Of a DNA stretch of 64,000 nt, positions 28,543-54,075 are shown in pieces. The DNA is taken from the NCBI GenBank assembly GCA_963281255.1, contig OY725494.1, forward strand, positions 881,934 to 945,933, read 5' to 3'. The position numbers were made by a program, and so were the translations under genes. The notes under the pieces were generated by a model. That model was given only the letters and a program-made list of their open reading frames with translations, was not told the DNA's origin and did no database searches. This stretch comes from Aphrocallistes beatrix. Taxonomy: Eukaryota; Porifera; Hexactinellida; Sceptrulophora; Aphrocallistidae. How positions within the stretch are numbered: position 1 is the first letter of the stretch; each line of letters begins with the position of its first letter.

Positions 28543-30643
28543 TCACTGCATATCATCCGTACTGCCAGGGGAAGAGCGCACAATACCTGTAGGGTTGTGT
28601 GAACTTTCGTTACTACCGCCTGATGTTACTTGTACGCCCACAGGAATATCAGGATACGCATGATCAGCATGTGGGAGTATAACTAGATCGAAAGTGTCGG
28701 GTAGGTTAGCTAAAGTATCTTGATGCGATATGTTAGTCCATAATTGACCAGAAATAGAATTTGAACTATTCTGTACAGTGGAGTTGGTAGGATCAAGTTG
28801 ATTGGTATGCGAAGTATTGTTGATAGAAAGATGAGATAATGCATCTGATTTAGGTCTTGTGTTATCACCTATTAGGACATTGTTAGAGATTCTATGATGT
28901 AAAATGTCAGTGGGCGCTGGACTTAAGTTAGATTCAACTTTGTCATTGGGCTGTTTACTGAAAGAGTCATTCAACTTCACTTTAGTTAATGAAATAACTG
29001 AACTATTATCCTCGCCTCTACCAGGCTTAGTATCATTACAGTCAGGATTACGGGTACTACCAAGAGTATCAGGATTAACAGGTAAAAAGATTTGATGCGA
29101 TATGTCAACTTGAGATGTAAATTGGCTATCAGTTCCAGTATTCACATCCACTGGCTTAGAACTACTGGGATAGGAAGGAGTAGGATTCTGATTACGAGGT
29201 ACATCCACCTTATCCGGTATCAGGAAATGATTCAGTTTGTTTGGAAGGTAAGGAGTGCTCATATGTAGCTCGCTTCTGACTTTCATCAACAATTCTCCTA
29301 GTTTATTAGCTCCTGTCCTGTCTCCACCATCTCCCCAGAATTTATCATTACTTGTATGTTCATAGATTCGCTTCTCACCAGTTCTGTTCAGAATATCAGC
29401 GAGATCTGGATTCTGTACAAACTTGTGTCTCAACACATTGAGCATTACCTGTGTCTTAATGCTATGCCAGTCAGGGCGAATCCATCGTTGGACCATTGAT
29501 ATTCTTGCGAACTCAAAAGCCTTTCTAGGAGTGTCCAGTTTGCTACATAAGTCATTAGTGGAGTTCCAACAAATTTGTTTCCCTGAAAAGCGTGCTCTGA
29601 TGTGGTCCAGTAAATAGGATCGATAAAAAGTTTCACGCATTTATAAAAATTGGTAAATTCGTAGAAAGGTTCATCACTGTTGTAGAAGTCAATGTGAGTA
29701 GTTTCTACATCATCGTACCATTTGGGACCAAGTGCGAATTCAGTACTCTTTAACAGGGGACGGAATTCTTTAAATTTATCATACTTTAAAGAGTGAGTTT
29801 GCATACAACATTGAGAATTTGGAGATGAATAAGAGTCACAACCAAAATATATGCATAATTTCCTTTTTGAAAATTTAGTGTATTTTCTATGGAGCCATTC
29901 ATTGAATAGAAAGAAACACTTTTTAGAACAGGCAACATAAAATTTCTTCTGTTTAGGATGTGTACAGCACCAGTAACATTCAGGAATCTCTACATTCCAG
30001 TTAGAATCGACAATCTTGTGCAGAGGAAGAGGCATATAAGGAAATAATTATCTGGGAATTGGTCCAACATCAGTGCGATGGTATAAAAAATGTGTCAATT
30101 CCCAACCAAATAAGTTAGGTGATATAGGGTGAGGAATATACCAGTCAGGATATTGTTCTCCCCCAAATTTTTAGAATTATACCAATTCGGGCCAACCCGT
30201 AAAATTTTTTTTGAAAGAGATCCTTGATCCACCCATTGAGGAAATTGCTTCCCAAATTCATCTTTATGCGTGGTGCCACAGTAAGAAGCATTCACACATA
30301 CCTTGTCACATCCAGGAAATCGACAAAACTTCCTCTCTGTTAGGAACACTACTCTCTCAATGCACCAATCATGAAAATAGAAGAAACAATCTTTCGAACA
30401 ACAAATTCCAAAAAATTCTTTCCTAGGATCAGAACACCAGTAACATCCTTGAATAGAGAAATTCCAATTAGTTGAATCCATATATTTAGGTTTATACATG
30501 CTGACATCAAGATCAGTTCGTCGTGGAATTGGGCCGATATCAGTTTCATAGCAAAGTGTTCGGAGGAGTCCTTTTGAAAACTCTATTTTTTTGCTACTTC
30601 CCCAAAATAATTTTTGAAAGCCAGAATATAAACATGCCATCAT
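28543..30643 (-). pseudogene. Locus A: zinc-module NADAR gene with three breaks
   Basis: A paralogue of locus B with two Cys-rich modules, a NADAR domain and a Ser/Thr/Asn-rich tail. Module 1 (30643 to about 30160) reads TDIGPIPRR...GCYWC...CCSKDC...FCRFPGCDK. The frame then changes at a GGGGG run near 30160. Module 2 follows, with an in-frame TAA at 30048-30050 just after DVGPIPR. The NADAR domain opens with FYNSDEPFYEFTNF, loses frame near 29545 after GTPLMTY, and continues as TPRKAFEFAR...NDKFWGDGGDRTGANKLG. Aligned with B and C, each break is a single indel or a stop rather than an intron. Either the gene is dead or the assembly has homopolymer errors; three separate lesions favour a pseudogene. 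Confidence 0.8.
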
Positions 30644-30940
30644 AGAACTCTAATTGACAGTGAGGTTTTATTCAGTTAAACGACAAATTAAACAAATTAT
30701 ATTTTCTGAAACTACTAGTACCTTGGAGTCTACGGAATACAATTTGCCCTATCATTGATATTTCTGTGAAGAAAATACATTTGATGCTTCTAAAACGGGA
30801 GCAGATTTAGGACTATAAATTATTATAATTTTCGTTTAGATTTTACCTCCGACATTGTACGAACATATCTACGCATACCACTGATGCTAGATTCAGTCTC
30901 TCAGTAAATTGACCTAATCATAGCATTGTATACACAAAGG

Positions 30941-31102
30941 CAGCAGTTTTCAACCTTTTTTTGGCGGACCCCTATAGTAATTTTCTTATATTCTGTGGAC
31001 CCCCTCTTATTAACCGTAATACTAAATTTTGAATCCTGTGTACCCCCTGATATCTTTTGTGGACCACTAAGGGGTACATGGACCCTAGGTTGGGAACCAC
31101 TG
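30941..31102. mobile_element. hAT MITE in the FB-1 left TIR
   Basis: CAGCAGTTTTCAACC...GGTTGGGAACCACTG, 162 bp. Flanks CACAAAGG and CATTAAGG both derive from CACTAAGG, seen intact in FB-1 copy 1. Confidence 0.8.
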
Positions 31103-31225
31103 CATTAAGGTAATGGTGCTGATTGGTGGACTTGGACTAGGGATTGGTTAGATCAGTTAGTATACTTGTATATCCAAAATTCTAATACAACTGTAAATAT
31201 ACTGTAACTACCCATATTAAGTAAA

Positions 31226-32395
31226 TTTTATATATTAAAACGCTAGGATTTTTTTTTGTGTCTGTGTGTTTGTCCGAATTGATTGAAAAATTGGCAAGTC
31301 GTAGAGGTGTGAACATTGGCATGTAGGCGTCAAATGATATGACTACGATTAAGTTCTAAGATCTAAGGGAAATTTTCACACCTCTGCAAAAAAAATGGAA
31401 AACAATTTTTCACACCTTTTCTATACTAAATAAATGAATACAATATCACAATAGAAATCATTGTACGGCACTACAATAGATCGTCATTGTTATTAATACT
31501 TCAAAGCCACGACTTATGTTTGATATCTTAAATGTATTATAATGTATGGCAATAAAAAAGATATGTGCATATTTTCACACCATTTGATGAATTTTGAAAA
31601 TAATGCTAGAGACTACCTTCCAACGGGTGACATGGGGTTTTTAGGGGTGTAGATTTCGAATATCGTATTTTCAGATCTATATGATGAATTATTTGTCTAC
31701 TTTTGTTTACATTAGATACATAAAGTAAACAAATCTCAAAGATATGCTAGAAACTTGCTTTAAACGGTTGACATGGGGTTTTCAGGGGTGTAGATTTCGA
31801 ATATCATATTTTCAGATCGATTTGATAAATTATTTGTTTACTTTTGTTTACATTAGATACATAAAGTAAACAAATTACAAAAAATGCTAAAGACTTGCTT
31901 CCAACGGTAGACTTATGGTTTTTAGCGGTGTAGATTTCGAATATCATATTTTCAGATCGATTTGATAAATTATTTGTTTACTTTTGTTTACAATAGATTC
32001 ATAAAGTAAACAAATCTCAAAAATATGCTAGAAACTTGCTTTAAACGGTTGGCATGGAGTTTTCAGGGGTGTAGATTTTGAATATCATATTTTCGAGTAA
32101 ATTTGATGATCAATTTGTTTACTTATGTTTACAATAGATACATAAAGTAAACAAATTACAAAAATGGGCTAGAGACTAGCTTCCAACGGTTGACATGGGT
32201 TTTTTGTGCAGATTTCGAATATTATATTTTCGGATCCATATGAGAAATTATTCGTCGACCTTTATTTACAATATTTATATAAAGGAAAAAATTTCCAAAA
32301 TATGTTAGATTGAGTAATTCCAGGCGCCCGCAGGGCGACTCTGCGGACACACAGTGTCCGCATGCCGCGCAGCGCAAGCAAACGAAGCGTGCTTG
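31226..32395 (+). mobile_element. Hel-B, full-length Helitron-like element
   Basis: 1170 bp from TTTTATATATTAAAACGCTA to GAAGCGTGCTTG. The empty site in FB-1 copy 1 at 20384/20385 (GTAAA|TAATTA) shows insertion between A and T with no target duplication. Order: a 5' block with TTGATTGAAAAATTGGCAAG; five tandem units of about 140 bp (31600-32300) built on GGTTGACATGGGGTTTT; and a GC-rich 3' end with the hairpin GCGGACACACAGTGTCCGC and a terminal GCAAGC...GCTTG stem. No protein is encoded, so it must be mobilised in trans. Confidence 0.85.
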
Positions 32396-32823
32396 TAATT
32401 AATAACCTACTTCCCTTTTATGAAATCATGAATGGTCTGGAGATAATGTTATATAGTGGACATGTAATAAGTAAATTAATAAATAATCAAGCAGAAATTA
32501 TGAGTATAATTGGAAAGAAATGTGATCCACAGATAAAATGAGCATAGAGGTAGTAGTTTAGAAAGTCGAGCAGAAGCGAGATATGATGATAGGGGTAGAA
32601 TGTAACTCCGATGCGTCTTGAATAAGTGTCATTGTAGCTGTTAGTGGAGTTCCTCGATAATGATAATGATAAAGTAGAGATTTCATTCAGACGGTTGTAG
32701 ATACAGGAGTGATATATCATGTCGGGGGATTTATCTATAAAAATATAATACAATAATTAGGCACTAAATTTGGTTCGAAAAAAAATTTGTAACGGGTATA
32801 GAAGAGATAATTATCGGTACATA

Positions 32824-33097
32824 CAGGGTGTTTCAAAAGTCTTGGCACCTACTCTAATAGAACCACACAAAACAACTTATAAATCAAAAAAATCTTAATC
32901 GGGCCGCTAAAATAGTAATATCGAAATCATTCTTAGATAATTTAGAAAGTGTATGCCAAATCGAATTAGGAAAGTACTAGAATTGAAAGGTGATTATATT
33001 GGCAGATGAAATTCATAGTGAATGGAATTCAGCATGTCTTATGTACGTAGTATATAAGTTAAAATGTTCAAGGGGTCAAGACTTTTGAAACACCCTG
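32824..33097. mobile_element. mariner-like MITE in FB-1 copy 2
   Basis: CAGGGTGTTTCAAAAGTCTT...AGACTTTTGAAACACCCTG, TA on both sides, 274 bp. Confidence 0.88.
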
Positions 33098-33102
33098 TAA
33101 AG

Positions 33103-33256
33103 CAGCGGTTCTGAACCTGGGGTAAATTTTTAAAATTGAGCAATATATTCATGCAGTCCATCCCAAACCAAACCAACAAAAAAAATTGAGAGGGATACGT
33201 GAAACCTCATGTTGACACCAAGGTGAACTACTGACTGAAAAGGTTCAGAACCACTG
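33103..33256. mobile_element. hAT MITE in FB-1 copy 2
   Basis: CAGCGGTTCTGAACCTGGGG...GGTTCAGAACCACTG with a perfect 8-bp TSD, CTGTAAAG. The duplication includes the edge of the neighbouring mariner TIR, so the mariner arrived first. Confidence 0.9.
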
Positions 33257-33805
33257 CTGTAAAGCCTCAACAAAAAGATAGCAACTCTCGATATCACTCA
33301 TTGTTTTAGTCATAATTGGAAATAAATCAACCGCGAAGGAAGACCCTAACGGAACTGGACGAACAATGGTTGGAAATACAATTGTGGGGGATCACTTGGA
33401 TTGTCGATGGCGCCGAAAACTTTACCTCATTTATAAGATGTGACAGTACGAATGTGAACTTCATCCATTCGAAGTATCACATGGCGTTCACTATGGCTAA
33501 ATTTGGAAGTTATTTGAAAGTAATCACCTCCAATACCCATAGTATTGTTTATACTAATGAAATTTCTCTCATGTGGTAAGATTACGTGAGCAGAAGTGTA
33601 AATGTGACAATCAGTAAATGAAACATAATTAGAAACTTACTCTTATTTGCGTGTTTGCATAGTCCTTCCGTGGGCGTGGAATTGCTCTAAACCATTCTTC
33701 AAGTAGTTTCAGATTTTCAGAGGTAGATTCTGCTTGACTTCTATAATTATGACAAGTCCACTAATCAGCACCATTGCCTTTGTGTATAGAATTCTATGAC
33801 CTAAT

Positions 33806-34346
33806 GAAGCAGTTATATTTATTTGTACGGGGGATTGTACCTAATTGATTTTGAAGTAATCTGACACTATATTATATTAATTGATCACAATGAACGACAA
33901 GAGATAGTAATAAATCCAAATGGCCTAGCTATACAATAGACATTACACAAATTAAAAGTTAGAAAAAATATTTGCTCATCTCATCAATTGTAATGTAAAT
34001 AAATTTAAATGTAAAGAATAAATTTAGAAATAAAGTAGACAATGCTTATAAATAAGGATAGAAAGATACAAAAAATGTTTTTATAATGTTAGTAATTTTA
34101 CAGGAGTTTGATTTAGACTAAGGAAGATTCATGACTATTCAATTAATTTAACTGTCTCTCTTTATTAGCCATCCTAGTGGAAAAATGGGAACGATCAACC
34201 TATTTGGATCTTGGGATGATTGGAAATGTTAAGAAAAATGTAAATACCTAGTTAGCATTTTGCTTCCTGTTCAAAGGAGAAATTAATTAATATTGAAGTC
34301 TACGGAGGACAGCCTAGAATGAAATTTCATCTTTACCAATAGGAAA
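33806..34346. other. Downstream flank of locus B
   Basis: AT-rich, no gene or recognisable repeat. Confidence 0.4.
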
Positions 34347-36815
34347 CTATGTGGTATTATACGGACATATATAGTCATCTGAGAGTTGATGTTTTGCTTC
34401 ACCACGAACTATGATTGGAGTGTGAATAGGATCAGTACCAGCTGTTTGAATTGTCTGATCTTCTGATTCAGGAATATTATCTTTTTCAGTATTAGTTTGA
34501 GCTAAATTTAACGAATATTTTCCTTTCAGATTAGTAGATTCATTGTAACCAAATCTCGTCGGTTCATTTCCACTCATAAACATATCTGGGAGTTCATTTT
34601 TCAATTCGCTTGTATCTGCATTAGGAGTCTGCTGATGTGATTCAGAAATAGCATTTGTTTTAGTGAGATTACTATCCGGTTCCTGATAGGAAGGAGCATT
34701 GAATTGCATTGACATAAATTCAGGATTTAAAGGATCATTATATGAGCTAAAAGGGCTGGAACTCATGGAGTTATTTGATTTACCTGATTGATCGAAGTAA
34801 GGAGTATGAACTGAGGTTTGTTGTGGATTATATTGAGGTGTGATCTCCGGAAAAAATTCTCGGAGTTGATCCCTTACATGCACAAGTAGCCGTCCCAATT
34901 GATTCTCACCACTTCCATCACCTCCGTCACCCCAGAATCTGTCATTCTTCGTGTGCTCCACTAACTGAGCATTACCAGTTCTTAACAGAATCTTAAGTAA
35001 AGTTTCATCTTGAGAGAACTTCTCCATTAATACATGTCGCATTACTGTTAACTTAATGCTATGCCAATTTGGATGTATCCATTTCTGGATATCTCGCTCT
35101 CGAGAGAATTTAAATGCATCTCGAGGAGATGGGAGAGTGTTGACGCAATTGAAGTATGGAGTTCCAGCAAATTTGCTAGCTTGAAAATAGTGCTCCGAAG
35201 TCTTCCAGTTAATATTGTCAATAATGAGATTTCTACAAGGATAGAAATTCGTGAATTCGTAAAAGGGAGCTTCTAGATTATAAAATTCAATCCGATTACG
35301 TGAGTAGTCGGCGTACCAGGAAGGACCCAGAACGAAGTCAGTATCCTTTAGAAGGGAGAAGTACTGCTTGAAAGAAGACTCGAACTGAATAGAATGGTCA
35401 CGGTTACAGCATTTAAAACTACCAGATGCATGCCTTTCACAACTCAGCACTCGACAGAGTCGTTGGTTTAAGCGATTAGTGAACTTGTTGTGCAACCACT
35501 CGTTGAAGAAGAAAAAACATTTGTCTGAACAAGCAATGTTATGGACAGTTCGAGGTTTAGTACAGCACCAGTAGCATTGAGTAATGGGAACTGTCCAATT
35601 CTGGTTAACTGAAGGAGGAGGAGGAGAAGTCATGAACGGCTGTATTTCTCTTGGAATAGGCCCAACATCTGTTTGGAAATAGAGAAATTCTGTCAGCTGT
35701 CTTGAGAATATGAAGCAACTGCTGGAGGAGTGAAATTGTGGATTAGTTTTAGTAGATTGTTGTATAGGAGGGTGTGACTGGGTTTTTTGGGTCTTGATAG
35801 TTACTGGTTGTTGGTTCATTGATTGAATTGATTTAAAAGGAGTGATTGATCTGTTGTACCAAGTAGGACATATACTAATCATCCTCTTAATATCAATAAT
35901 CTTAGCTTCTGTGTACTTCTGTTCAATATGATTAGAATGTTCTCTATTACAACATTCAAATCCTTCAGAAGCAAGTTTAGGACATCCTGGTAACTGACAG
36001 AATCGGGTAGTAGTTTCACGCTCTATCTTCTTTCTGCACCATTCATAGAACACTAACTGACAACGCTCCTTACAAAACATTTCATTATAGAAATGAGCTA
36101 CATTTCTATTGTCACAGTTGTAACAGCCTTTTATCTCTGCTGACCAATTAGAAGAATTATAATACTTGGAAGTGAGATATTCATGAATAATCATTCCCCT
36201 TGGAATAACTCCAACATCTGTGTTGTAGATTAGTTCTGTTCTGAAATGTTCAGGAAATTCCAAGTTATACTTTGCCCTGTTATACTTTATGTCAATGCTG
36301 ATTGCCTTTACATACCAACTAGGACCACTTCGAACAATATATTTCAATAATTTCTGATGATCAGGAAATTGTCGAACTGCATCGAATTTGGCCTGATCAC
36401 TTACACTACAATATAGATTATCTCGATTATGAAGGATCTTATCACAGCCTAGTAACCTACAGAATCTTTTGTTGGTAAAGAACTCGACTCTCTCAATACA
36501 CCAGTCATGGAAATAGACGAGACATTCCCTAGAACAACAGATTCCTAGAAATTCAGCTGTCTTTACCTTTTCAACACACCAGTAACAACCATGAATAGGA
36601 TATTTCCAATTTTTTGAATCTGCATATTGAGGTGTAGAAGCAGTTTTGTGGAAATTTCTACGAGGAATGCTGCCTACATCAGTTTCATAATAAAGCGATC
36701 TTAGGAGTCCTTCTGAAAACTGGAAACGAATAGTACTTATAGTTTGATCGAATACGTTTTTATAATAGTGTCCCCAGTATGTGAGAAAGGGACCCCACTC
36801 AGTGTTAGATGCCAT
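34347..36815 (-). CDS. Locus B: intact three-zinc-module NADAR protein
   Basis: An 822-residue protein in one uninterrupted frame. Three Cys-rich modules lie at about 36-170, 195-320 and 375-500. Each reads TDVG.IPR, then NW......GCY.C, CC.or.CS..C with FHDWC/FYEWC/FNEW, a (F/L)C(R/Q)L..C block, and C...H or CC..(E/D)H, ending (G/C)P(S/T)WY. Module 1 has YCSVSD in place of the final C...H pair, so its zinc site may be degenerate. A NADAR domain follows (about 508-655: FYNLEAPFYEFTNFYPC, WKTSEHYFQASKF, NDRFWGDGGDGSGENQLG). The tail, 660-822, is low complexity. NADAR (YbiA/DUF1768) members include an N-glycosidase acting on riboflavin-pathway intermediates and hydrolases that remove ADP-ribose from guanine. 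The zinc modules recall the PGC...CG.(T/D)H motif next to NADAR in fungal proteins (from memory). Substrate here is unknown. Confidence 0.88.
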   Translation of the reverse strand: MASNTEWGPFLTYWGHYYKNVFDQTISTIRFQFSEGLLRSLYYETDVGSIPRRNFHKTASTPQYADSKNWKYPIHGCYWCVEKVKTAEFLGICCSRECLVYFHDWCIERVEFFTNKRFCRLLGCDKILHNRDNLYCSVSDQAKFDAVRQFPDHQKLLKYIVRSGPSWYVKAISIDIKYNRAKYNLEFPEHFRTELIYNTDVGVIPRGMIIHEYLTSKYYNSSNWSAEIKGCYNCDNRNVAHFYNEMFCKERCQLVFYEWCRKKIERETTTRFCQLPGCPKLASEGFECCNREHSNHIEQKYTEAKIIDIKRMISICPTWYNRSITPFKSIQSMNQQPVTIKTQKTQSHPPIQQSTKTNPQFHSSSSCFIFSRQLTEFLYFQTDVGPIPREIQPFMTSPPPPSVNQNWTVPITQCYWCCTKPRTVHNIACSDKCFFFFNEWLHNKFTNRLNQRLCRVLSCERHASGSFKCCNRDHSIQFESSFKQYFSLLKDTDFVLGPSWYADYSRNRIEFYNLEAPFYEFTNFYPCRNLIIDNINWKTSEHYFQASKFAGTPYFNCVNTLPSPRDAFKFSRERDIQKWIHPNWHSIKLTVMRHVLMEKFSQDETLLKILLRTGNAQLVEHTKNDRFWGDGGDGSGENQLGRLLVHVRDQLREFFPEITPQYNPQQTSVHTPYFDQSGKSNNSMSSSPFSSYNDPLNPEFMSMQFNAPSYQEPDSNLTKTNAISESHQQTPNADTSELKNELPDMFMSGNEPTRFGYNESTNLKGKYSLNLAQTNTEKDNIPESEDQTIQTAGTDPIHTPIIVRGEAKHQLSDDYICPYNTT

Positions 36816-37342
36816 GCTAAAGGGACTACATAATGTAATAAATATAACTACGTATACTGCTGATGAGCATTATTAAAAGGTGTGAGATTTTTCAATTGTT
36901 ATGTCAAGTCTGAGACTATAAATTCAACAAATTTAGAGCGTGGTTATTTATCTTCAAGTGGCTAATTAGCCGGTTTCAGTGCAGTAATAATATCAATCAC
37001 TAATTGGCACTGAACAAATGAAAAACAATGGGAAAAACTAATATTTCGAATAATTCAAAATTCATGATATTAAAAACTACTTTGGGTATTCAATAAGCTT
37101 TAGGAGCATTAGCAGAGGGTTACCTTTTGATTGATGTATTGGTTTACTGTAACAATAAAATTATTGCGGTCCATGTGCTCGATTCACACACCCTCTAGTA
37201 GGGCACTAGATCGAAAACACATGGTACAAATAATATTACCTTTATGATGACCATTAGTTTGGGTTTAAAATATATTTTTAAAAAAGACTAAAAAAACAAT
37301 CATAATATGCTGACACAAGTTGCAAGTGTATGGGAGTAAATA
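36816..37342. other. Locus B upstream region
   Basis: No gene. A hairpin, AGTATACGTAGTTATATTT-like, and AT-rich DNA only; the promoter cannot be placed. Confidence 0.35.
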
Positions 37343-38196: not shown

Positions 38197-39711
38197 TTAA
38201 TTGGGAGAAGAGGCTCCAGGAATAACAGTGGAGGTATTATGTAGCCCCATTGCTGAGTTAGATTTACAATAAACTGGATTCAATCCTTGAGATGGTAAAT
38301 TATTCCAATTGGAAGATACTTCATGTGTGAGATGATTCAATGTTGAAGGTAAATATGAAATGCGTCTCTGTAAATCAAACCTGACCTGCATCAATAACTG
38401 TCCTAACATGTTCTGACCTCTCTTGTCTCCTCCATCTCCCCAGAACTTATCGTTATGTGTGTGTTCAAACAGCTTTCTATCTCCTGTACGGATAAGCAAG
38501 TCACCAAGATCTGGATTTTGAGTAAACTTCCCCTCCAGCGCTTTTAACATTACAGAAACCTTCACTTTCTCCCAGTCGATACGGATCCATTTCTGTACGT
38601 TTGGAATGCGCGCGAAATCAAAAGCATCTCTTGGAGTCTGCCTTGCACGAATAAATTCGATGTATGGAGTTCCGACAAACTTCTGAGATTGAAAATAGTG
38701 CTCTGTAGTTGGCCATGAAACATTGTCTATATAGAGGTGTGTGCATTGGAAAAAGTTTGTGTATTCATAGAAGGGTGCATCTACGTCATAAAAGTCGATG
38801 TGATCATCATTTGGACGATACCACTTGGGTCCTAATGCAAAGTTAGTACTCTTCAAATCTCCACCAAATTTAGATGTGAATCTACTCTGGTATCTGTCGA
38901 AGTGTTCTCTCTTGCAGCAATCCCTCTCAGAGGTAGCACTAGAATCACAGAGTGGAAACTTACACAGTCTCTTGTTCGTATTACTAACAGATTTCTCATA
39001 CTTTCTGTGACACCATTCATTGAGAAGAAAGAAACATTTGTCAGAACACGCGACACCATGGATACTCTGGTTATTCTCACAGCACCAGTAACAACCTGGA
39101 ATGATGGCATTGGAGTTTCCAGGAGTCGTCTTGATGCAAGAATCCGGGAGTGTCTCAAACAGTTTCCTAGGAATAGGACCGACATCAGACTTCTCATAAA
39201 GGAATCTCGAAAGAATCTCACAAAAGACTAGTTCACCTTTCTGAAATTGAATTGGCTTAGTTTGTGTAGATGATTTTTTCTTTGAAACTGAGGCTGCTAA
39301 ATGAAGAGTTTCAAAAGTAGAGTTGCACTGGTACCAAGTTGGTCCCTTATCAACTTGGTCTGAGTTTAAATTTGAAAGGCTTTTAGTTTCTTTTTCATGA
39401 TCTTTACCACAATACACTGTCCCACTGATTGCTAGCTTACCACAACCAGGAAATTTACAAAATGTGACTCTACTCAAAAGCTTTCGCCTACACCACTCAT
39501 TAAACGCGAAGTAGCATTTCTTCGAACAGAGATATTCAGCAGTATCAGATACCTTCTTACCACACATGTAACACCCTGATATCTCTCTATTCCAGTTAGG
39601 AGAACTGGAGAACTCAGATGTGAGGTGTTCTTCCTTTTTGAAGCTTCCAGTAATGGGCCCTACATCTGTGTCAAATATTAATCCATTTTTCAATTCAGGT
39701 GCAATATCCAT
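38197..39711 (-). CDS. Locus C: two-module NADAR protein, probably 5'-shortened
   Basis: A 504-residue open frame. Module 1 (about 5-127: GCYMCGKK, LCSKKC, FNEWC, FCKFPGCGK, YCGKDH, KGPTWY) and module 2 (about 163-298: DVGPIPR, GCYWCC, ACSDKC, FNEWCHRKY, LCKFPLCD, DCCKREH, GPKWY) precede a NADAR domain (303-450: FYDVDAPFYEYTNFF, WPTTEHYFQSQKF, NDKFWGDGGDKRGQNMLG). The tail is short. Alignment with B shows this was once a three-module gene: another module lies upstream, broken, at 39804-40704. The ATG used here falls just before TDVGPI of the second module and may be a fallback start. The NADAR core is complete, so a shortened product could still be made. Confidence 0.82.
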   Translation of the reverse strand: MDIAPELKNGLIFDTDVGPITGSFKKEEHLTSEFSSSPNWNREISGCYMCGKKVSDTAEYLCSKKCYFAFNEWCRRKLLSRVTFCKFPGCGKLAISGTVYCGKDHEKETKSLSNLNSDQVDKGPTWYQCNSTFETLHLAASVSKKKSSTQTKPIQFQKGELVFCEILSRFLYEKSDVGPIPRKLFETLPDSCIKTTPGNSNAIIPGCYWCCENNQSIHGVACSDKCFFLLNEWCHRKYEKSVSNTNKRLCKFPLCDSSATSERDCCKREHFDRYQSRFTSKFGGDLKSTNFALGPKWYRPNDDHIDFYDVDAPFYEYTNFFQCTHLYIDNVSWPTTEHYFQSQKFVGTPYIEFIRARQTPRDAFDFARIPNVQKWIRIDWEKVKVSVMLKALEGKFTQNPDLGDLLIRTGDRKLFEHTHNDKFWGDGGDKRGQNMLGQLLMQVRFDLQRRISYLPSTLNHLTHEVSSNWNNLPSQGLNPVYCKSNSAMGLHNTSTVIPGASSPN

Positions 39712-39803: not shown

Positions 39804-40704
39804 TTAACTGTCATACCATTTCGGACCTATTTTTAGTTCAGTTTCTAATTTCTTCTTGGTTACCCAGCAATCCTTAATAAGCGAATCATACTTTTCTTTA
39901 TGTCTTTTGGTGCAACACATATGGGTCTCTTGAGGAAGCTGATCACATCCTGGTAATCTGCAGAACTTTTGTCCGGAATCCTTCTCAACAGCGGTGTTTT
40001 GCCAAAAATAGAAGGGGGGGGGCGCTTCCTTCCCGTAAAAAAGTTATATGTTTTTTCGTGAAACTTTAATCCCCTGATGGCAGGGGCGGATACAGGGTTT
40101 AGACTCAGGGGGGGCCAAAAGCGAGCGGAGCGAGCGCAGGTAATGGGGGGTCTGGGGGGTAACCCCCCAGAAAAATTTTTAAACTTAAGGTGGTCAAATA
40201 TCATTGTACATCAATTCTTATCAAATCTCATACGGGAATTGAATTTCCTTCCTGTAACCTGATTACCACTTTGTGCTTCGCGCCAATTCATCACAAGCGT
40301 TTGCGAGTATATTTAGGTTTTAGTCAACATAGTGATAATGATACAATGTAAAAAAGTGGGGGGCAGCGCCCCCCCCGCGCCCCCCCCCCAAAACACCACT
40401 GCTTCTCAACTTTTCCAATACACCATTCATGAAACGTATATAAGCATTTTATTGAGCAACAAATTCCTTGGTATTCTACTTTTTTTGTACCACACCAGTA
40501 ACAGCCAACAATTTTCTTCCCCCAATTGGAATTATTCAGAAATTTAGGGACAGGGAATGTATCTACATTTCCTCCTCGAGGAATTATTCCGACATCAGTT
40601 TTGTAATAGAGAGCGGATAATAATCCTTCAGAGAAGTTGACTTTGAATTCAGATTTTTCTACTTTCTTTTCCCATTGAGGGAGAAACTTGGATTTTGAAG
40701 CCAT
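39804..40704 (-). pseudogene. Locus C first module, disrupted by a hAT insertion
   Basis: From the ATG at 40704 (MASKSKFLPQWEKK) the module runs KTDVGIIPRG...GCYWCGTKK...ICCSIKC...FHEWCIGKVEK. It is cut at 40401 by the 413-bp element and resumes at 39988 with DSGQKFCRLPGCDQLPQETH...IGPKWYDS, ending in TAA at 39804-39806. Removing the element and one TSD copy rejoins the codons exactly at VEK-DSG. A further frame change separates this module from the 39711 ORF (NNDQKKQTRSK... is open in the other frame). Confidence 0.82.
39989..40401. mobile_element. hAT MITE inserted in a NADAR gene exon
   Basis: Ends CAGCGGTGTTTTG and CAAAACACCACTG; perfect 8-bp TSD CTTCTCAA (39981-39988, 40402-40409). The centre (about 40079-40190) contains CAGGGGCGGATACAGGG and GGGGGGTAACCCCCC, which look like a second nested hAT-type repeat. 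Poly-G and poly-C runs border both ends. Confidence 0.9.
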
Positions 40705-40734
40705 AACTAATTTTCTAATATTAAAAATAAACAT

Positions 40735-43880: not shown

Positions 43881-43913
<33 letters not shown>

Positions 43914-44911: not shown

Positions 44912-45096
44912 CAGTCAGGGTCGCTTATTATGAACTACCAGGGAACCAAAAAATCTGTTCATAATAGAGAGACTTCATATTAAGCGAACTCGACCTAATA
45001 CAAATCCTATGGAACCTGTTGAATTGGGACCAGAGAGTTAGTTCATAATAAACGAATGTTCATAATAAGCGGATTCATAATAAGCGAACCTGACTG
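44912..45096. mobile_element. pogo/Tigger-like MITE, 185 bp
   Basis: Same family and length as 26511-26695, also inside Hel-A, with TA flanks. Confidence 0.85.
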
Positions 45097-45343
45097 TATA
45101 CAGATTCTATTGAAATTTCAGCCTTCTATCTCCTATAATGGCTGAGTTATGCTCGAATAACTGTGTTGCTTAACTTTTAAAAATGTGACAATGACGTCAT
45201 AATTCCATGATGAATCGACATTTTGCTCTGAACTCAGAACTTACTGGAGCCATAGCCAAAATACTCCCACATGCCTAAAATCAGCCTTCTGCGCCCGGCA
45301 GTTTCTTCAATCAATTCGTTACAGAGAGAGAGATATATATATA

Positions 45344-45650
45344 CAGTAGAACGTCAGTTATCCGAACTTCAGTTATCCGAACACTTCAGTTATCCGAACC
45401 CCTTGGTTGACCAAATTAAAATATAATAAATGTATAAATGATGCATCCTGAGTTGAGAATTGAAATTATTACACTGCCATCATTTTATATACTATTGATG
45501 ATACCTACATAAGCTAATAAGTATTTTATCCATATTCATCATTATGACTACTTAGTACTACTGATCAACTTTTCTATAGAATCACATAACAACTTCAGTT
45601 ATCCGAACCCCCCGCGGTCCCAACCCGTTCGGATAACTGACGTCCTACTG
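45344..45650. mobile_element. pogo/Tigger-like MITE, 307 bp
   Basis: CAGTAGAACGTCAGTTATCC...GGATAACTGACGTCCTACTG, TA flanks. The motif TTCAGTTATCCGAAC repeats three times at the left end. Confidence 0.85.
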
Positions 45651-46912
45651 TATATATATATACAATAATCGAGTTTTAATAGTAAGGATATATACATATA
45701 TATATATATATCTGTAACGAATTGATTGAAGAAACTGCCAGTCCCGGAAAGCTGATTTTTGGCATGTGGGAGTTTTTTGGCTATGGCTCCAGTAAGTTCT
45801 GAGCTCAGAGCAAAATGTCGACTCATCATGGAATTATGACGTCATTGTCACATTTTTAAAAGCTAAGCAACACAGTTATTCGAGCATAACTCAGCCATTA
45901 TAGGAGATAGAAGGCTGAAATTTTAATAGAATCTGCATACTAACATACCTCACATATGATGCAACTAACATAAAAAATGATAACTCATCACTTTGTTATG
46001 ACGTCATCATTACTCATCAAAATTTTAAAATTGACAAATATGGTGATTTTTCGTGCGATATCGATTATAATAGTAGGACAGACGTATTTAGAGATACTAA
46101 TTCCCTTATAATTAATCAATGATGACCACAGGCGCCCAAAGGGCGCCTCCAGCGGACACAAAGTGTCCGCCAGCCGCGCAGCGGAAGCAAGCGAAGCGCG
46201 CTTGTGCATCCTTACTATTAAAACTCGATTATTGTTTGTTTGTGTATATATATATCTGTAACGAATTGATTGAAGAAACTGCCAGGCCCAGAAAGCTGAT
46301 CTTTGGCATGTGGGGATCTTTTGGCTATGGCTCCAGTAAGTTCTGAGATCAGAGCAAAATGTCGACTCATCATGGAATTATGACGTCATTGTCACATTTT
46401 TAAAAGTTAAGCAACACAGTTATTCGGGCATAACTCAGCCATTATACGAGATAGAAGGCTGAAATTTTAATAGAATCTGTATACTAACACGACTCACATA
46501 TGATGCAATTATTAAAAAATGATGACTCATCACTTTGTTATGACGTCATCATTACTCATCAAAATTTTAAAAATTGACAAATTTGGTGATTTTTCGAGTG
46601 ATATCGATTTTAAAACTAAGATAGACATATTTAGAGATTATATCTCCCTTATAATTAACCAATGTCACCTCCAGGCGACCGAAGGGAGCCTCCGGCGGAC
46701 ACAAAGTTTCCGCCAGCCGCGCAGCACAATCAAGCGAAGCGCGCTTGTAACTAAATGAAACTAGTCTACGTTCCAATAAATTATATATCAATGTTATGGC
46801 TATTTTCTTTCTCTGCTATATGGTTCCTTTTTACTTGTACGTTGTATTTGTTCTTGAATGTTAGCTCTCAACTTTCTATACATATAAGGATGCGCCACGC
46901 AGCAAAGGGGCA

Positions 46913-48230
46913 ATGGGGAGGCGGGATGGACCTACAAGGAAGTATCCGTCAAGCCAATTCCCTAAGAAGGGTCGGTGCTTTATTTGCGACTCGGACAGGC
47001 ACTTTATGGCCCAATGCCCGGAACGGCACTGTGCGGAATGTGGCGAAAGAGGACACGAGGTCCGCTATTGGCCACATACAGTCGAAGAGGGGTATTTCAG
47101 GCCACGACGCAGCATAGTGTTGTACATGAGACGGCGGTTGTGGTACCAGTTAAATGGAACGGCAAACTCATCAATGTAATGATGGACACGGGGGCAGATC
47201 CTTCGGTGGTGGACAGAGGCATCGTACAAAAGATGAATATCCCTTACAGCACAAAGTACAGTCAAGTGTATGGGCTAGGGCGGACAGCGCTTGCGGTCTG
47301 TGGTACGGCCTGCGTGGCGATAGATGTGGGGGATGGTCGACCACTAGAACACGAAATCGAAGTACTCGATACTAACAATAGGGTGGTTATATTGGGGCGA
47401 AGGTTCCTCGCGCGCTTCAAGAATACTACTTTCGATTGGGAAAACATGAGAGTTAGGCTAGGTGGTTGTTGGAAAACCTCTTTAGCTGCGGCACGCGGGG
47501 GATACGCGGCGACTAGAGCAGAAATTATGCAGACTGAGATGGGAAAGGAGGGAGATAGCTTGGAGGCCAGGTTCGATATAAACCCGAAACTATCACCGCG
47601 AGAAGAGACAGCCATACGCAAGGTGCTGTCGAGATGGAAAGACTTTTTCGCGGAGAACCCGAAGAGCCCGCGCGAAATTGGAACCGCGGAACACGTTATC
47701 ACTCTTCTGGATGAGCGGACGATCAGAAGCCGGCCGTTGCGTGCTTCTCCGGAATTTGAGGCGGAGGTGTCCAAGCAGATAGATAAAATGCTCGAGAATG
47801 GGATCATACGTCCCTCTTCTTCCTCTTGGGCGCCCATCGATTTGCCGTAGATTACCGGGATCTCAACGATGTGACGAAGCGAGATGCCTATCCGATGCCG
47901 GATCCCCGAGATGTTTTCGATCGTATGGGAGGGGCAACTGTATTCTCTACACTGGATGGGGCATCCGCATACTGGAGCGTGCCTGTGAAGGAAAAGCATA
48001 AGGAGTTCACTGCGTTTGTTTCAACGCGCGGCCAGTTTGAATTCAACCGCATGCCTTTTGGATTGTCAAACTCACAGGCTACCTATCAGCGAGCGGTAGA
48101 CCAGGCTCTACGAGGGTGTCCGAATGTACAGGCATTTGTTGATGACACATGTGTCCACTCGCCCAGTTTCGATACGCACCTGGAGCATTTGGATGAGGCT
48201 CAGTTGGCTATTCTTAAAATTGAGGATGAA
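46913..48230 (+). pseudogene. Ty3/gypsy retrotransposon fragment: zinc knuckle, protease, RT
   Basis: Three consecutive frames. The zinc knuckle CFICDSDRHFMAQC is followed by a second knuckle whose last cysteine is replaced by Trp. The aspartic protease has the VMMDTGADPSVVD active-site block (about 47178) and VVILGRRFLARF. The RT starts RPLRASPEFEAEVSKQIDKM, loses about 9 residues and its frame near 47825, then continues with FAVDYRDLN, FNRMPFGLSNSQATYQ and AFVDDTC (usually YVDD/YLDD). Homology ends near 48225. RNase H, integrase and both LTRs are absent. GC content is clearly higher than in surrounding DNA. It is a dead, truncated insertion. Confidence 0.85.
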
Positions 48231-48428
48231 GAATGTGAGGATTGGGCTTTTGAGTGTACTGATTGCTGTATTGACGGAAAAGATATGCTACGTTGTATTT
48301 TAATGACTTCAAGTAACTGTTTACTCAACAATAAGGCCAAGAATATTACTTCTACCACCTCTTGTCCCAAAGATACTCAAAGGAAGATACTTAAACTTAC
48401 CTCTAATTAATATATGTATATATATATA

Positions 48429-49204
48429 TGTTAGGACAAATTTGCGAAATCAACAATTATGCATAATTGTCGACAAATATGTAAAATTGTTCATTTCACA
48501 ACAATTATGCAAAATTGTTAATCTAATACGACAATTATGCATAATTGTTGTGAAATGAGCAGTTTTACATAATTGTTTAAAATGAAAGCAACAATTATGC
48601 AAAATTGTTAATGGTGCTGTCACGAAAGTTTTGATCCTGCATGGACAAATTTTCCATAGAATATTGGTCCGGGGGACCATTTTTTTCACAGTTAACCCGA
48701 TTTCTCCAATTGAGGATGTATGTATTGTATCAAAAAATTAGATAAGCTAAACATGTAGTATATCTAATTAGAATTCTAATTGGATAGCCAATGAGAAACT
48801 CAGAATAGACATTCTGTTGATTTTCGGTTATTACTAGTAACATCTTTACCCAGAAGTTCTGGGTCTAAATGAATTTTAACCCTAGCATTTAGACCTGAAT
48901 CTTCCTATAAGGATTTATAAAATAATTTGAAGAGACTTGGTTTGTAGGGCAGTTTTCACTCATTTTGTGGAATGTATTCGACGAACACACACACACTGTC
49001 CTAGAACTAATAATAAACTAGAGGGATGGCATAATAAATTTAAAAAATTGCTCGAAAAGTGCAGTAAATATATACGAAATTGTAAAATATGCATAATTGT
49101 CGCATTAGATGAACAATTATACATAATTGTCGTGTTAAATGAACAATTATGCATAATTGTCGACAATTATGCATAATTGTTGATTTCGCAAATTTGTCCT
49201 AACA
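48429..49204. mobile_element. Gin-2 MITE with ATTATGCATAAT repeats
   Basis: TGTTAGGACAAATTTGCG...CGCAAATTTGTCCTAACA, flanked by TATA on both sides (48425-48428, 49205-49208). Both arms carry repeated ACAATTATGCATAATTGT palindromes. 776 bp, no protein. Confidence 0.88.
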
Positions 49205-49620
49205 TATACACCTATATATTTATGTAGTATTCCTTGTCCGTCAACTAAATTATGCCAGCAGTCTGTAATATCATTATTGTGGGGTAGAGGATGTATAATT
49301 ACACGATATTAAATACGTATATCAAAATGATATTGTGTTAAATTTCATTGTATTAAAAACTCTACTTTATCTTATCCCTGGTCTAAAGTAGTGAAATGGC
49401 CTGTATGTAGTAGGCTATGTTCTGTGCTATGTTTAGTACAGATATTTGTAATCAGAAAGCTTCCATCAATTTGATGGGGTCACATGGCCATATTTGATTA
49501 ACCTTAGCTCCTGTTTGCACCCATTCAAGTGACCCCTCTTACGACGTAAAATTGACAACAAAAAGTTGTTTAGATATCCTCTCAGTGTTGACAGTAAACA
49601 GGAATCACGGTAAGGGAGCC

Positions 49621-50867
49621 CATGGCCTACTATCAGGGTTGCCGTGGGAATGGGAATCTGTGGGTTTTCCCATGGGTATTCCCATATGGGATGGGAATGG
49701 GAATGACTTTAAGCCTATGGGTATCCCCACATGTGGGTTCTGTGGGTTTTTGTGGGTTTTCTTGGGGCATGCCTAATTTCCGGGACGGGACGGAACCATC
49801 AGGTACCTAATTTCCGGGACGAGACGAGTCAAAATGCCTAATCTCCGGGACGGGACAGAAAAGGTACCTAATTTCCGGGACGGGACGGGTTAAGATGCCT
49901 AATTTCCGGGACGGGACGGGTGAAGATACCTAATTCCCGGGACGGGATGCCGTCCCGTCCCGGAAATTAGGTATCTAAATTTTCCGGGACGGTCCCGTCC
50001 CGTCCCGGAAATTGGGCAATCCCGTTTTCTTGTGGGTTTCTGTGGGTTTTTTGTGAGGTTTCCTGTGGGTTCTGTGGGTTTTTGTGGGTATTCCCACGGA
50101 AATCCTGTGGGAATGGGATGGGGATGGGTATTGAAATTCCATTCCCACGGCAGCCCTGCCTACAATATAATACGGCTATATAAGTATAGTATTTGCCTAT
50201 TTCATTTCCAGGCCATTGTTTACTTTCTGATTGCTAGTTTATATCAGTACTTACTGTCACGAAATCAACAGACTTAGGTTTTCAAATACGCTGGAAACAG
50301 CTAGAACACTTTTGAGAACGATTTCTCATTGGATTTAACCACAATGACGTAATCATATATATATACATACCCATATATGGTAATTATTATATTACTGAAT
50401 TAAGCATTATATGAGTGAGTACTTTTATTATTTTTCGAATTGACACAAGAAATACAAGAATTGCTAATGGAGAAAGGTACGCAATTAAATTTTCTGACGT
50501 TTGGTGGATTTAAATGCGGAAACCTGGTCCTTACGGCGTGTTTTTTTTACCATGTATGTTTTTTTTTACCATATATTTTTTTTACCATATATGGTTTTTT
50601 TGGTTTGGTTATATGGTTTTTTTTACCATATATGGGTATGTATGTATATATATATATATATATATGATTACGTCATTGTGGTTAAATCCAATGAGAAATC
50701 ATTCTCAAAAGTGTTCTAGCTGTTTCCAGCGTATTTAAAAACCTAAGTCTAGTTGATTTCGTGACAGTAAGTACTGATATAAACTAGCAATCAGAAAGTA
50801 AACAATGGCCTGGAAATGAAATAGGCAAATACTATACTTATATAGCCGTATTATATAGTAGGCCATG
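49621..50867. mobile_element. FB-4 foldback element
   Basis: CATGGCCTACTAT...ATATAGTAGGCCATG; GGGAGCC on both sides (49614-49620, 50868-50874). The arms are complementary for about 200 bp after excluding the hAT insertion. The centre is AT- and T-rich. Confidence 0.75.
49634..50158. mobile_element. hAT MITE with GGGACGGGACGG repeats
   Basis: CAGGGTTGCCGTGGGAATGG...CCATTCCCACGGCAGCCCTG; TSD CCTACTAT/CCTACAAT (8 bp, one mismatch). The interior (49770-50020) has direct and inverted copies of CCTAATTTCCGGGACGGGAC. Confidence 0.8.
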
Positions 50868-50874
50868 GGGAGCC

Positions 50875-51510
50875 TATAAGCTCGTATTTTAAATTTTTAA
50901 GAAAGCACATTTTTGCACAAAAAGCGGGTTGGAAAATAATAATTTTGTACTAAAAGCATCAACAAATTAGCCCTTAAAGGATAACAATCAAAAATAGTTG
51001 TTATTTTAGGACATTCTAAGTGTAAAATTTGGAATCTACATATTAAAATATCTTATAATAGCCATTGAGAGCTCGCTTTTAACTCAAAATAAAATTGTTT
51101 TCAAAAGGTGTGGAAATATGTATATAAACTTATGTAGTAACTCATAACATTCACATATTTTCACATTCTAAGTGCAAAATTCGGAATCTACATATTGAAA
51201 TATCCTATATTAATCGTTGAGATCTTACTTATATCTTTAAACAAAACTTTGCAGTGGTGGTGTTAAAATATGAATACGTATATACTTATAAAAACTGGAA
51301 GTGATGAGATTTTGCAAAAAAATGTTGACAGTGCACATCTACACAAAGAGATCCTACATGCGAAATTTGGTAAAAATCGGAATGTTGGATTTTGCAGTAG
51401 CGCGCGTACGGACATACATACATACATACATACGGACGGACGGACGAGATACTCCGTCCATGCCATAAGGGCATCTCCCTATAGGAGCTGCACTAAAAAT
51501 AAAATATCAA
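50875..51510. repeat. Interspersed repeat with ACAT/GGAC tail
   Basis: No gene. Near 51410-51445 lies an (ACAT)n then (GGAC)n microsatellite followed by ATACTCCGTCCATGCCATAA, a layout typical of the 3' end of a dispersed repeat. The family was not identified. Confidence 0.4.
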
Positions 51511-51659
51511 TAAGATAATGTTAACCATTTAATTGAGGTAAAGTAGAGAGAGCTAGAAGGACGTAGTGAGGGTTAATTAAATGTCTTTTTTCAAGTTTTA
51601 CTTTTGAGTCACACATAGCATCATTTAATTTAATTAAAGACAACATTTACCTTATTTGA

Positions 51660-52258
51660 AAGAGATCACATGAGCAAAATGCTCCAACTTTGTAGGTAAA
51701 TATGGAATGCGTCTCTGCAAACCAAACCTCACTTGCACTAACAACTGTCCTAACATGTTCCGACCGGTCCTGTCTCCTTCATCTTCCCAGAACTTCGCTA
51801 TGTGTGTGTTCAAATAGCCTGGGTCTTAATGCAAAGTTCGTACTCTTCAAATCTCCACCAAATTTAGATGTGAATCTACTCTGGTATCTGTCGAAGTGTT
51901 CTCTCTTGCAGCAATCCCTCTCAGAGGTAGCACTAGAATCACAGAGTGGAAACTTACACAGTCTCTTGTTCGTATTACTAACAGATTTCTCATACTTTCT
52001 GTGACACCATTCATTGAGAAGAAAGAAACATTTGTCAGAACACGCGACACCATGGATACTCTGGTTATTCTCACAGCACCAGTAACAACCTGGAATGATG
52101 GCATTGGAGTTTCCAGGAGTCGTCTTGATGCAAGAATCCGGGAGTGTCTCAAACAGTTTCCTAGGAATAGGACCGACATCAGACTTCTCATAAAGGAATC
52201 TCGTCAGGATCTCACAAAAGACTAGTTCACCTTTCTGAGAATTAATTGAATTTTCCAC
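51660..52258 (-). pseudogene. Locus D 3' part: module 2 with NADAR core deleted
   Basis: Codons matching locus C residues 158-294 (DVGPIPR, GCYWCC, ACSDKC, FNEWCHRKY, DCCKREH) are intact. The sequence then jumps from FAL directly to LFEHTH, deleting about 115 residues that contain FYEYTNF and EHYFQ. The frame is lost at the WGDGGD segment, whose trace reads GDRTGRNMLGQLLVQVRF. About 350 nt here (51843-52198) are identical to 38849-39204 in locus C. Confidence 0.85.
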
Positions 52259-52379
52259 TTCCCAGGATTTAGAACTAATATTTTGCTACTCTGCTTTAGT
52301 TTGAAAAAAACTGAATGAACGTTTCCCATCCAAATTAGTAGAAAATTTATTGTAGCCAAATTCCATCGGTTGATTTTCA

Positions 52380-52806
52380 CTTTTAGGAGAGGATGTGATA
52401 TTAAATGAACACACACAGTCATTCGGAAGTTCATGCTTTGCTTCACCACGAACTGTGATCAAGGTGCATGTTCCCTGATAGGATTAGAACCAGTTGTTTG
52501 AATTGAATTCCTATTAGATTCTCGTTCTTGTGCGACAATTGAAGACACAGCGTAATAATCATATTGTCTATACTCACTGTTAAATTCTGTATTAGGAGAG
52601 CTCAAATGAGTAACTGTGTCAGGAATCCTACTTGATTCAGGAATGTAAGAAGTCTTCATAGGAGAGGTAATCTTCGGTACCTGACAGGAAGCATAGAATT
52701 TATTTGGCTGATCTGAAGTGTTTGAAATAAATTCAGCATCTGCTAGCTCTCGAGTAGGGTTAGAAAAGCTTTTTTGAAGGGTGTTGTTAGTCACCATGAG
52801 GTTCAT
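52380..52806 (-). pseudogene. Locus D: detached C-terminal tail of a locus-B-like gene
   Basis: A Ser/Asn/Gln-rich frame ends NSIQTTGSNPIREHAP. In the next frame TLITVRGEAKHELPNDC follows. This matches the end of locus B (TIQTAGTDPIHTPIIVRGEA, then KHQLSDDY). It lies upstream of a zinc module instead of downstream of a NADAR domain, so the locus is rearranged. Confidence 0.7.
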
Positions 52807-53225
52807 GTTCGTGATGGTTAGCGGTAGGTTGATAGTAAAACAATTAATTATGCCCGAGTTTCAAAAGAAAAATTTCAACTATTGACCGAGTTAAAAAAAC
52901 AGGGATTTTCACAAGCAGCGAGCTCGATAGATCCTGACCAGGAAACCCTTATTTATCTTGTCTAATCAGCTAGATTGTCTGAATCGGTCATTCAAATGAC
53001 TATTAAATGTCCTTCAAATTAACTTTAATCCTATTCATAGTTAAATTAATGCGACAAAATAATATCAAAAATAGTCAGTAATAGTCAGCAGTCAGTAGCA
53101 TATTCATTAAGTTAACTCAAATACTGTTCAAGTTTCAAGCTCTTCATCTGAATTTATTTCAAAATCTGAAACAATCTTCAATATTAGCATCTGATAAGAT
53201 GGTTATCGCATCAGTAGGTCTAGGT

Positions 53226-54075
53226 CTACAAGATAATCTGATTGTGCTTACATTCAGGGTGTTTACAATAGTTAATTTTAATATGTTTGTGCACCTTCAT
53301 TCTACACTCCTCGTGGAATATCATATAACATCTTCCTGAACACAGATATTCAGTGTCACTTGTACATTGCTTACTAAGATAACAGCCTTCAATATTTCTA
53401 TTCCAGTTTGCATGTGTAGAGTATTGGGAACTAGAATCACCACTTAACCTGTAACTTCTCGGGATAGGACCTACGTCTGTGTAGAACAAGAGGGCAGTAC
53501 TCAACTCTTCTGATAAACGCATTTTTGCTTTACCGAAGTCAGGTTGAATTGTGCTAGAACTTGTTTGCACTTGATTATGAGATGAATCTGACTTGCGAGT
53601 GATATTATCATACCATGAAGGTCCGAGGGATAATTGCTTCTTCAGTTTTTCTCCATTATGAACTGTTAAAAACTCACGCACATAATCCTCTCTATGGATA
53701 ACAGAACAACACTCGTATTTACTTTGAGAAGAATAAATAGTTTCACAACCTGGTAATTTACAAAAACGCCATTGTTGAAACATTCCTGCTCTCTCGAGTC
53801 TCCACACACCACTTATAAAAATAGAAAATACAATCATTACCACAACATATACCTTGAACATCTGTCGATTTATTACCACACCAGTAACATCCAATTATAT
53901 CTTTTTCCCAATTACTATTCTCATAGATTGGAACAGTTACATCTTCTGAATCGATCCTGCGAGGAATGTAACCAATGTCTGTTCCGGAATAAAGAGTCTT
54001 AAGAAGAATCTCTGAGAAAGGAACTATCATGTAGGGTTTTGTCTTCCCAATCTTCTTTTCAAAATATTTTCCCAT
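53226..54075 (-). pseudogene. Locus D 5' part: two zinc modules, frameshifted and truncated
   Basis: From the ATG at 54075: GTDIGYIPRR, GCYWCGNK, ICCGNDC, FYKWCVE. A one-base shift near 53790 follows, then FCKLPGCE, ECCSVIH and LGPSWYD. The second module begins TDVGPIPR, has GCYLSKQC where others have GCYxC, then LCSGRC and CKHPEC, and stops at 53226 before the CxxxH pair. The modules align with B and C, so the shift is a mutation, not an intron. Confidence 0.8.

Follow-up and report, generated by a model that had tools for sequence, protein, structure and literature searches.

What might an animal do with genes that join a domain of the ADP-ribose-removing type to rows of cysteine-rich modules? 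The question is raised by a stretch of 64,000 nucleotides, hereafter the window, from the glass sponge Aphrocallistes beatrix (contig OY725494.1, positions 881,934 to 945,933). Four minus-strand loci, A (28.5-30.6 kb), B (34.3-36.8 kb), C (38.2-40.7 kb) and D (51.7-54.1 kb), each contain a repeated Cys-rich module of ~133 residues, which in A, B, and C is joined to a NADAR domain (PF08719). The array has been shuffled and is partly broken, and its modules, previously undescribed, are probably zinc-binding. A preliminary description, made from the sequence alone, had placed modules and NADAR domains in one same-strand array. This was borne out by Pfam and by a module profile built from 87 seed modules, which matched all four loci on the minus strand with E values down to 2.8e-49, showing that the repetition is not due to chance. 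We found no description of the module-NADAR family in the literature on NADAR (guanine ADP-ribosylation, sponges, zinc fingers, expansion) or on glass-sponge genomes and immunity, in which subscription papers were mostly outside reach, nor by word searches of the accessible text of two glass-sponge genome papers.

The NADAR domain is YbiA-like and keeps its pocket

As proposed previously, B is an intact three-module gene. Its single open frame has 840 codons with the first Met at position 36815, and the 822 residues from this Met are identical to those of the predicted protein P0001 (Table 1). The NADAR domains of B and C scored 113.9 and 118.3 bits, respectively, against a curated Pfam cut-off of 35.1 bits. 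The catalytic pocket has not been lost from all copies: the ADP-ribose-pocket residues are kept in B and C, including E43 and K50 (the distal-ribose Glu and the phosphate Lys). E43, R79, W89, D130, and W133 were present in all 35 catalytic-type module-gene rows of the residue alignment, which also held six pseudo-NADAR rows and three window fragments, and K50 and E125 were each present in 34 of the 35. The E125 position, occupied by Glu rather than Asp or His in the YbiA subfamily, is Glu in B and C, and the predicted fold of the domain agrees with that of YbiA. Judged by these features, the NADAR of the module genes is YbiA-like.

Its surroundings differ from those of known members. YbiA-family proteins, of which Escherichia coli YbiA (PDB 2b3w) is one, are described in the accessible text of PMC11125620 as essentially naked single domains, whereas here modules precede the domain and a tail follows it. 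The NADAR of Phytophthora nicotianae, solved with ADP-ribose (PDB 8bau), is 29% identical; its R93 is replaced by Lys in B and C, and its 189-residue chain has no modules.

The Cys-rich module

Among 114 complete modules, of which 39 came from this genome, the ligand-type columns were kept almost throughout: Cys50 in 114, Cys53 in 114, Cys71 in 113, Cys75 in 114, Cys100 in 112, Cys105 in 111, Cys118 in 112, and His122 in 104. Ten proteins that duplicate genome frames, as well as incomplete or weak modules, were excluded from this count. The eight columns suggest two four-ligand zinc sites, with a helix after each second ligand pair, and the module would resemble tandem treble clefs. PHD and treble-clef fingers (Pygopus, BRPF1 PHD, zf-HC5HC2H, DUF2116) are alike in part of the Cys spacing and in the helix after each second Cys pair, but the PHD His is not kept in the module and only weak matches were obtained. 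No significant Pfam match was found among 19 modules, for which 10 families appeared at E values of 0.006 to 0.24; zf-HC5HC2H, the best of the families scored against a cut-off, reached 17.2 bits, below its cut-off of 29.1; and a profile search of the PDB returned eight chains, the best at E 0.045. An AlphaFold2 model of B module 3, with a predicted local distance difference test score (pLDDT) of 86, gave no meaningful Foldseek match in the PDB (a single one, at E 3.5), from which a new fold does not follow.

The modules of B carry net charges of only +1 to +5 each. That they are not strongly basic would suit an enzyme acting on soluble metabolites, in which NADAR would cleave free signals of the ADP-ribose type or by-products of repair (such as cyclic ADP-ribose or RNA-repair products) and the modules would serve protein assembly. 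Small ADP-ribose derivatives have been proposed as alternative NADAR substrates in published work; on balance, we consider such an enzyme rather unlikely here.

A larger array, a segmental copy and mosaic genes

In the 100.5-Mb genome we counted 37 NADAR stretches: 3 on C8, all in the window, 14 on C12, 10 on C13, 5 on C18, 2 on C7, and 1 each on C14, C20, and C16. The modules of B, used as query, matched at least 44 stretches: the window holds all 9 of those on C8, C12 has 34, and C7 has 1. Apart from one module seen at the end of a long ankyrin-repeat frame on C7, the modules therefore go with the arrays on C8 and C12. This frame (L032, C7:1246002-1250987), with its terminal zinc-type module, is followed ~9 kb further on by a frame with two diverged NADAR stretches (L020, C7:1260173-1261384). 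NADAR-rich but module-free regions were seen at C13:429-503 kb and C18:1178-1182 kb (L019, L021-L024), with shorter, exon-like frames, some of which have internal stops.

The C12 region at 1391-1459 kb harbors six uninterrupted frames with three modules and a catalytic NADAR motif, besides numerous fragments and frames that have one, two or four modules. Loci A, B, and C and the 3' part of D are collinear with C12:1403.8-1422.5 kb at 77-92% identity. The shared order and this degree of identity indicate that the window block is a segmental copy of part of the larger array, and at such identity a haplotype duplication of the C12 block is unlikely. The 5' part of D resembles other places of the array, not the collinear C12 segment.

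Within single genes, the nearest neighbours of successive segments disagree. The paralogues fall into types, here lettered a to e, and the joins are clear since types differ by ~37-50% in DNA. In the intact frame C12:1425666, module 1 is of type b (94.6% identity), whereas modules 2 and 3 and the NADAR are of type c (93.0%, 98.3%, and 96.7%). Frame C12:1421002 combines a type-a module 1 (90.5%) with a type-c module 3 (98.3%), and its NADAR is closest to type c (86.7%). In D, modules 1 and 2 are of type d (85-88% and 92%) and module 3 is of type c (98.7% to C). By these segment comparisons, modules and NADARs recombine between paralogue types in the C12 array. Some copies end in tails of tandem repeats; one type-a frame of 3034 codons contains the same eight-residue word 69 times. 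This NADAR frame lies at C12:1404018-1413119 (L010, L011); the repeat tails of other copies differ from it.

Relatives outside this genome

A protein search with B returned 31 proteins, 28 of which matched the module profile. Six of the 28 are identical to frames of this genome, and three, all from Oopsacas minuta, are named (P0010, P0012, and P0027). A search with the module alignment gave five short proteins, all with modules, four of which are parts of frames of this genome (one differs in the first residue). With the NADAR alone, 37 proteins were among the matches listed, and P0041-P0052 are without module; these include Em0001g2186a and Em0001g2188a, which from the style of the gene names we take to be from Ephydatia, fungal proteins, and fusions of NADAR with a macro domain, an ADP-ribosylglycohydrolase, or DnaJ. 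The NADARs of the module-free P0041-P0046 are 46-52% identical to that of B, but no module is found by profile, and in five of the six NADAR lies near the N terminus (judged by eye). Also found with B were a rotifer NADAR with an ADP-ribosyltransferase (ART), NACHT, and HEAT (P0029), a Marseillevirus NADAR with a uracil-DNA glycosylase (P0030), and a GTP cyclohydrolase II-NADAR fusion (P0031). P0029, from the rotifer Adineta, combines NADAR, an arginine-ART, NACHT, and HEAT repeats in a make-up like that of NOD-like receptors.

Relatives sharing NADAR alone comprised 134 phage records, all less than 60% identical, and 57 bacterial loci, whose identity is 36-48% across most of the domain and 53% in one part-length match. 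No module was found in the phage records, and the viral contigs gave one unconfirmed pattern match to the module and six to NADAR, none confirmed; these module searches rest on shared words or patterns, by which remote modules may be missed.

We built a maximum-likelihood tree of 80 NADAR rows, in which 26 of 77 inner branches are open and the bootstrap has not settled; six proteins identical to parts of genome frames and matches below 110 profile positions were excluded, and the bacterial rows were thinned from 56 to 21. B fell into a group of 10 rows (support 99/98), made up of B itself, two copies from C12, and seven proteins outside this genome. C and its C12 copies formed 4 rows (100/99), joined to a 12-row set in which the type-d copy of C12 also stands (96/80); type c therefore lacks a clear single counterpart outside this genome. 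The group of type d has 7 rows, O. minuta P0012 among them (100/89), and type e pairs with P0025 (99/94). A weak group (91/67) unites type a with P0009-P0011, of which P0010 is from O. minuta. The pseudo-NADARs formed a clade of six rows (100/100), one of them O. minuta P0027. Types a, b, d, and e and the catalytically dead pseudo-NADAR type thus have relatives outside this genome, and several types appear older than the split of this sponge from the sampled relatives. Conserved pseudo-NADARs lacking the catalytic Glu residues and preceded by a further module lie at C12:1429402-1431918 and C12:1443137-1446169 (L014, L034, L035); P0003, P0020, P0022, P0024, P0027, and P0028 have the same make-up, which thus occurs within this genome and beyond, O. 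minuta included.

Some database names raise the question of riboflavin biosynthesis. P0010 and P0012 are called PYRR-like and P0046, P0047, and P0050 'ribA/ribD-fused', P0031 carries GTP cyclohydrolase II, and bacterial and plant NADARs act in the pathway according to the accessible text of PMC11543638. A search for GTP cyclohydrolase II, the one gene of this pathway that was searched, gave 0 matches in the sponge genome as opposed to matches in 10 of 14 control genomes, so hydrolysis of a riboflavin intermediate is very improbable.

Decay of loci A, C and D

Locus A was correctly recognized as broken. It has a nonsense codon directly after the TDVGPIPR motif of module 3 and frame breaks, and it extends further than thought: it reaches position 30649, and the earlier start covered the 3' part only. 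C had been taken for a shortened gene. Two modules and the NADAR do stay open downstream of a frame break after module 1, but C is not simply short, as module 1 is present and split by a 413-bp repeated element. The ends of this element agree in 12 of 13 bases, an 8-bp target duplication flanks it (read by eye), and the C12 paralogue of C has the empty site, where two alignments overlap by 8 bp. It matches 44 genome stretches, itself included, with up to 99% identity (40 of 213 candidates scored); from its ends and the length of the duplication we presume this miniature inverted-repeat transposable element (MITE) to be hAT-like. D is broken and retains a NADAR trace only, as described before, and is additionally a composite of two paralogue types; its module 3 is complete to profile position 130 of 133.

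Introns were considered and rejected as an explanation for the breaks at loci A, C, and D, since paralogues run as single frames across the same places. At the insert in C the intervening sequence is a repeated element with target duplication, and in A a stop codon lies in the coding frame. That most gene models of two glass sponge genomes are single-exon, as stated in the accessible part of PMC10282587, also counts against introns.

In other organisms, NADARs are carried by some Gypsy and LINE elements (accessible text of PMC12477816), and a retrotransposon piece lies at 47.0-48.4 kb of the window. That a transposable element bears the array is nevertheless extremely unlikely, as Pfam finds NADAR alone in B and C, four of the types have relatives outside this genome, and the element in C sits inside the gene and does not carry it.

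Table 1. Positions of the array loci and of other features in the window
Feature	Position	Strand	Evidence
Gene B: intact frame of 822 residues with three modules, NADAR and acidic tail	34347..36815	-	ORF, Pfam, module profile; identical to P0001
B module 1	36312..36719	-	module profile E 6.4e-44
B module 2	35856..36257	-	module profile E 4.2e-41
B module 3	35313..35708	-	module profile E 1e-47; AlphaFold2 model
B NADAR domain, pocket residues kept	34860..35291	-	Pfam E 1.2e-32, residue alignment
Gene C: remaining frame of 504 residues with two modules and NADAR	38197..39711	-	ORF, Pfam, module profile; identical to P0026
C module 1, 5' part (profile positions 1-79)	40402..40635	-	module profile E 7.1e-30
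413-bp repeated element (MITE; presumably hAT-like) in C module 1	39989..40401	-	ends, target duplication, genome copies
C module 1, 3' part (profile positions 69-133; match extends slightly into element)	39813..40013	-	module profile E 4.9e-15
C module 2	39331..39702	-	module profile E 4.8e-40
C module 3	38818..39225	-	module profile E 6.1e-42
C NADAR domain, pocket residues kept	38371..38793	-	Pfam E 5.1e-34, residue alignment
Pseudogene A: modules 1 and 3 without the middle one, NADAR over two frames, tail	28543..30649	-	ORFs, Pfam, module profile
A module 1, complete	30179..30580	-	module profile E 2.8e-49
A module 3, nonsense codon inside	29715..30110	-	module profile
A NADAR, split by frame break	29266..29756	-	Pfam in two frames (E 2.4e-22; sub-threshold 0.17)
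Pseudogene D: type-d 5' part, 3' part like C12:1421002 (type c)	51724..54081	-	module profile, segment comparison
D module 1, frame break inside	53610..54018	-	module profile
D module 2, cut at profile position 94	53241..53516	-	module profile
D module 3, 98.7% identical to C module 3	51821..52219	-	module profile, segment comparison
D NADAR trace, 28 residues	51724..51807	-	~350 bp missing relative to C12
LTR-type retrotransposon piece (aspartic protease, reverse transcriptase; frames overlapping)	46966-48410	+	
Nuclear RNA export factor (NXF1-like) gene, one open frame	12727-14967	-	
Two similar small Cys-rich membrane-type proteins in tandem	2639-3106, 6954-7445	+	no Pfam match

Selection on the remaining copies

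Pairwise ratios of nonsynonymous to synonymous substitution (dN/dS) between recent copies ranged from 0.19 to 1.01 for modules and NADARs, the highest NADAR pair being at 1.006; the synonymous rate was unusable or saturated in three of the 37 rows. Between the diverged copies C and frame C12:1421002, the NADAR gave 0.29 and module 3 gave 0.19. Type-b module 1 was near neutral (0.70-0.97) and modules 2 and 3 were lower (0.34-0.57), whereas B compared with C12:1413855 gave 0.66 in the linker and 1.27 in the tail, the latter from few changes. These values indicate that most parts are under constraint.

Proposed function

Beyond the architecture, predicted fold, residues, paralogy, mosaics and decay set out above, we infer an intracellular location, a substrate, zinc binding, a targeting role and a part in defence. 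We tentatively favor the possibility that the genes encode ADP-ribosyl-N-glycosidases with targeting modules, which would protect cells from guanine-modifying ADP-ribosyltransferases of microbial, viral or host origin. The YbiA-type NADAR at the C terminus would hydrolyze an N-glycosidic bond in a base that bears ADP-ribose, guanine in RNA or DNA being the likeliest; the double-zinc modules at the N terminus, usually three in a row, would keep the enzyme on its target or partner; and the tail, made of tandem repeats in some copies, may act as a spacer. The evolution of the family would combine duplication, both tandem and segmental, with module exchange between types and with decay. NADARs, including YbiA-type members, remove ADP-ribose from guanosine in DNA and RNA (accessible text of PMC11543638, PMC11125620, and PMC11833690), and activity of the sponge enzymes on this substrate is predicted from sequence and modelled fold. 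The defence role draws on turnover, mosaics and the associations seen elsewhere, and on these only. Fusions of NADAR to ADP-ribose machinery, namely to a macro domain (P0047), an ADP-ribosylglycohydrolase (P0052), and ART with NACHT and HEAT (P0029), all by Pfam, were counted in favor of the overall proposal, as were the PARP stretches of the genome (at least 28), the conserved Cys/His columns, the lack of a GTP cyclohydrolase II match, and the constraint between diverged copies.

Several observations weigh against this proposal. DarTG1 NADAR antitoxins of the BC4488 type share the superfamily and possibly the guanine-ADP-ribose chemistry, but they have a catalytic Asp and a DarT1 partner, whereas the sponge domain has Glu and a search for DarT gave 0 matches in the genome, with control matches in one of 14 genomes. 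NADARs outside DarT1 operons protect inefficiently against DarT1, according to the accessible text of PMC11125620. The near-neutral modules, together with their lack of a fold match, give no indication of nucleic-acid binding. The preliminary interpretation was partly supported. Other NADAR fusions, with GTP cyclohydrolase II (P0031), DnaJ (P0048), and uracil-DNA glycosylase (P0030), point to no single function, and pairwise dN/dS gives no positive selection beyond the B tail and the one NADAR pair mentioned above.

The family might instead reverse base ADP-ribosylation by the sponge's own PARP-like enzymes, as endogenous signalling with no conflict role. The genome has at least 28 PARP stretches, and P0045 (Em0001g2188a) differs from B in having a PARP-like region and another Cys-rich stretch ahead of its NADAR; residues 123-240 of this protein match seven genome places, five of them in PARP-profile frames. 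This suggests an ART-NADAR fusion, a possible writer-eraser, although at E 0.01 Pfam finds NADAR alone in P0045. The existence of relatives of types a, b, d, and e outside this genome fits a signalling role as well, but turnover, mosaics and many broken copies would be unusual for a housekeeping eraser, and we judge such a role unlikely.

An extension of the favored guanine-directed defence, which we regard as doubtful, is that glass sponges have a diversifying intracellular repertoire of ADP-ribose erasers, in which module rows, as interchangeable recognition units, are exchanged among active NADARs, and the conserved dead NADARs, with a module of their own, are decoys or sensors of the same toxins. 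If true, a repertoire with decoys would be an animal counterpart of toxin-antitoxin immunity. The roles of eukaryotic NADARs, including those of animals, are called unclear in the accessible text of PMC11125620, where porifera are among the NADAR-bearing animals. If the substrate is ADP-ribosylated guanine, some animals would keep dedicated multi-copy erasers of base ADP-ribosylation. The array offers a testable animal system, with an intact pocket, a domain lacking any significant match in the libraries searched, several old types, natural chimeras, and a natural dead-enzyme control.

Finally, the two strongest PF08719 matches of the genome lie outside the module arrays, at C14:4013634-4016300 (L017) and C20:1151336-1152790 (L018); the proteins are module-free, have basic stretches, and carry a NADAR of a different sub-type.

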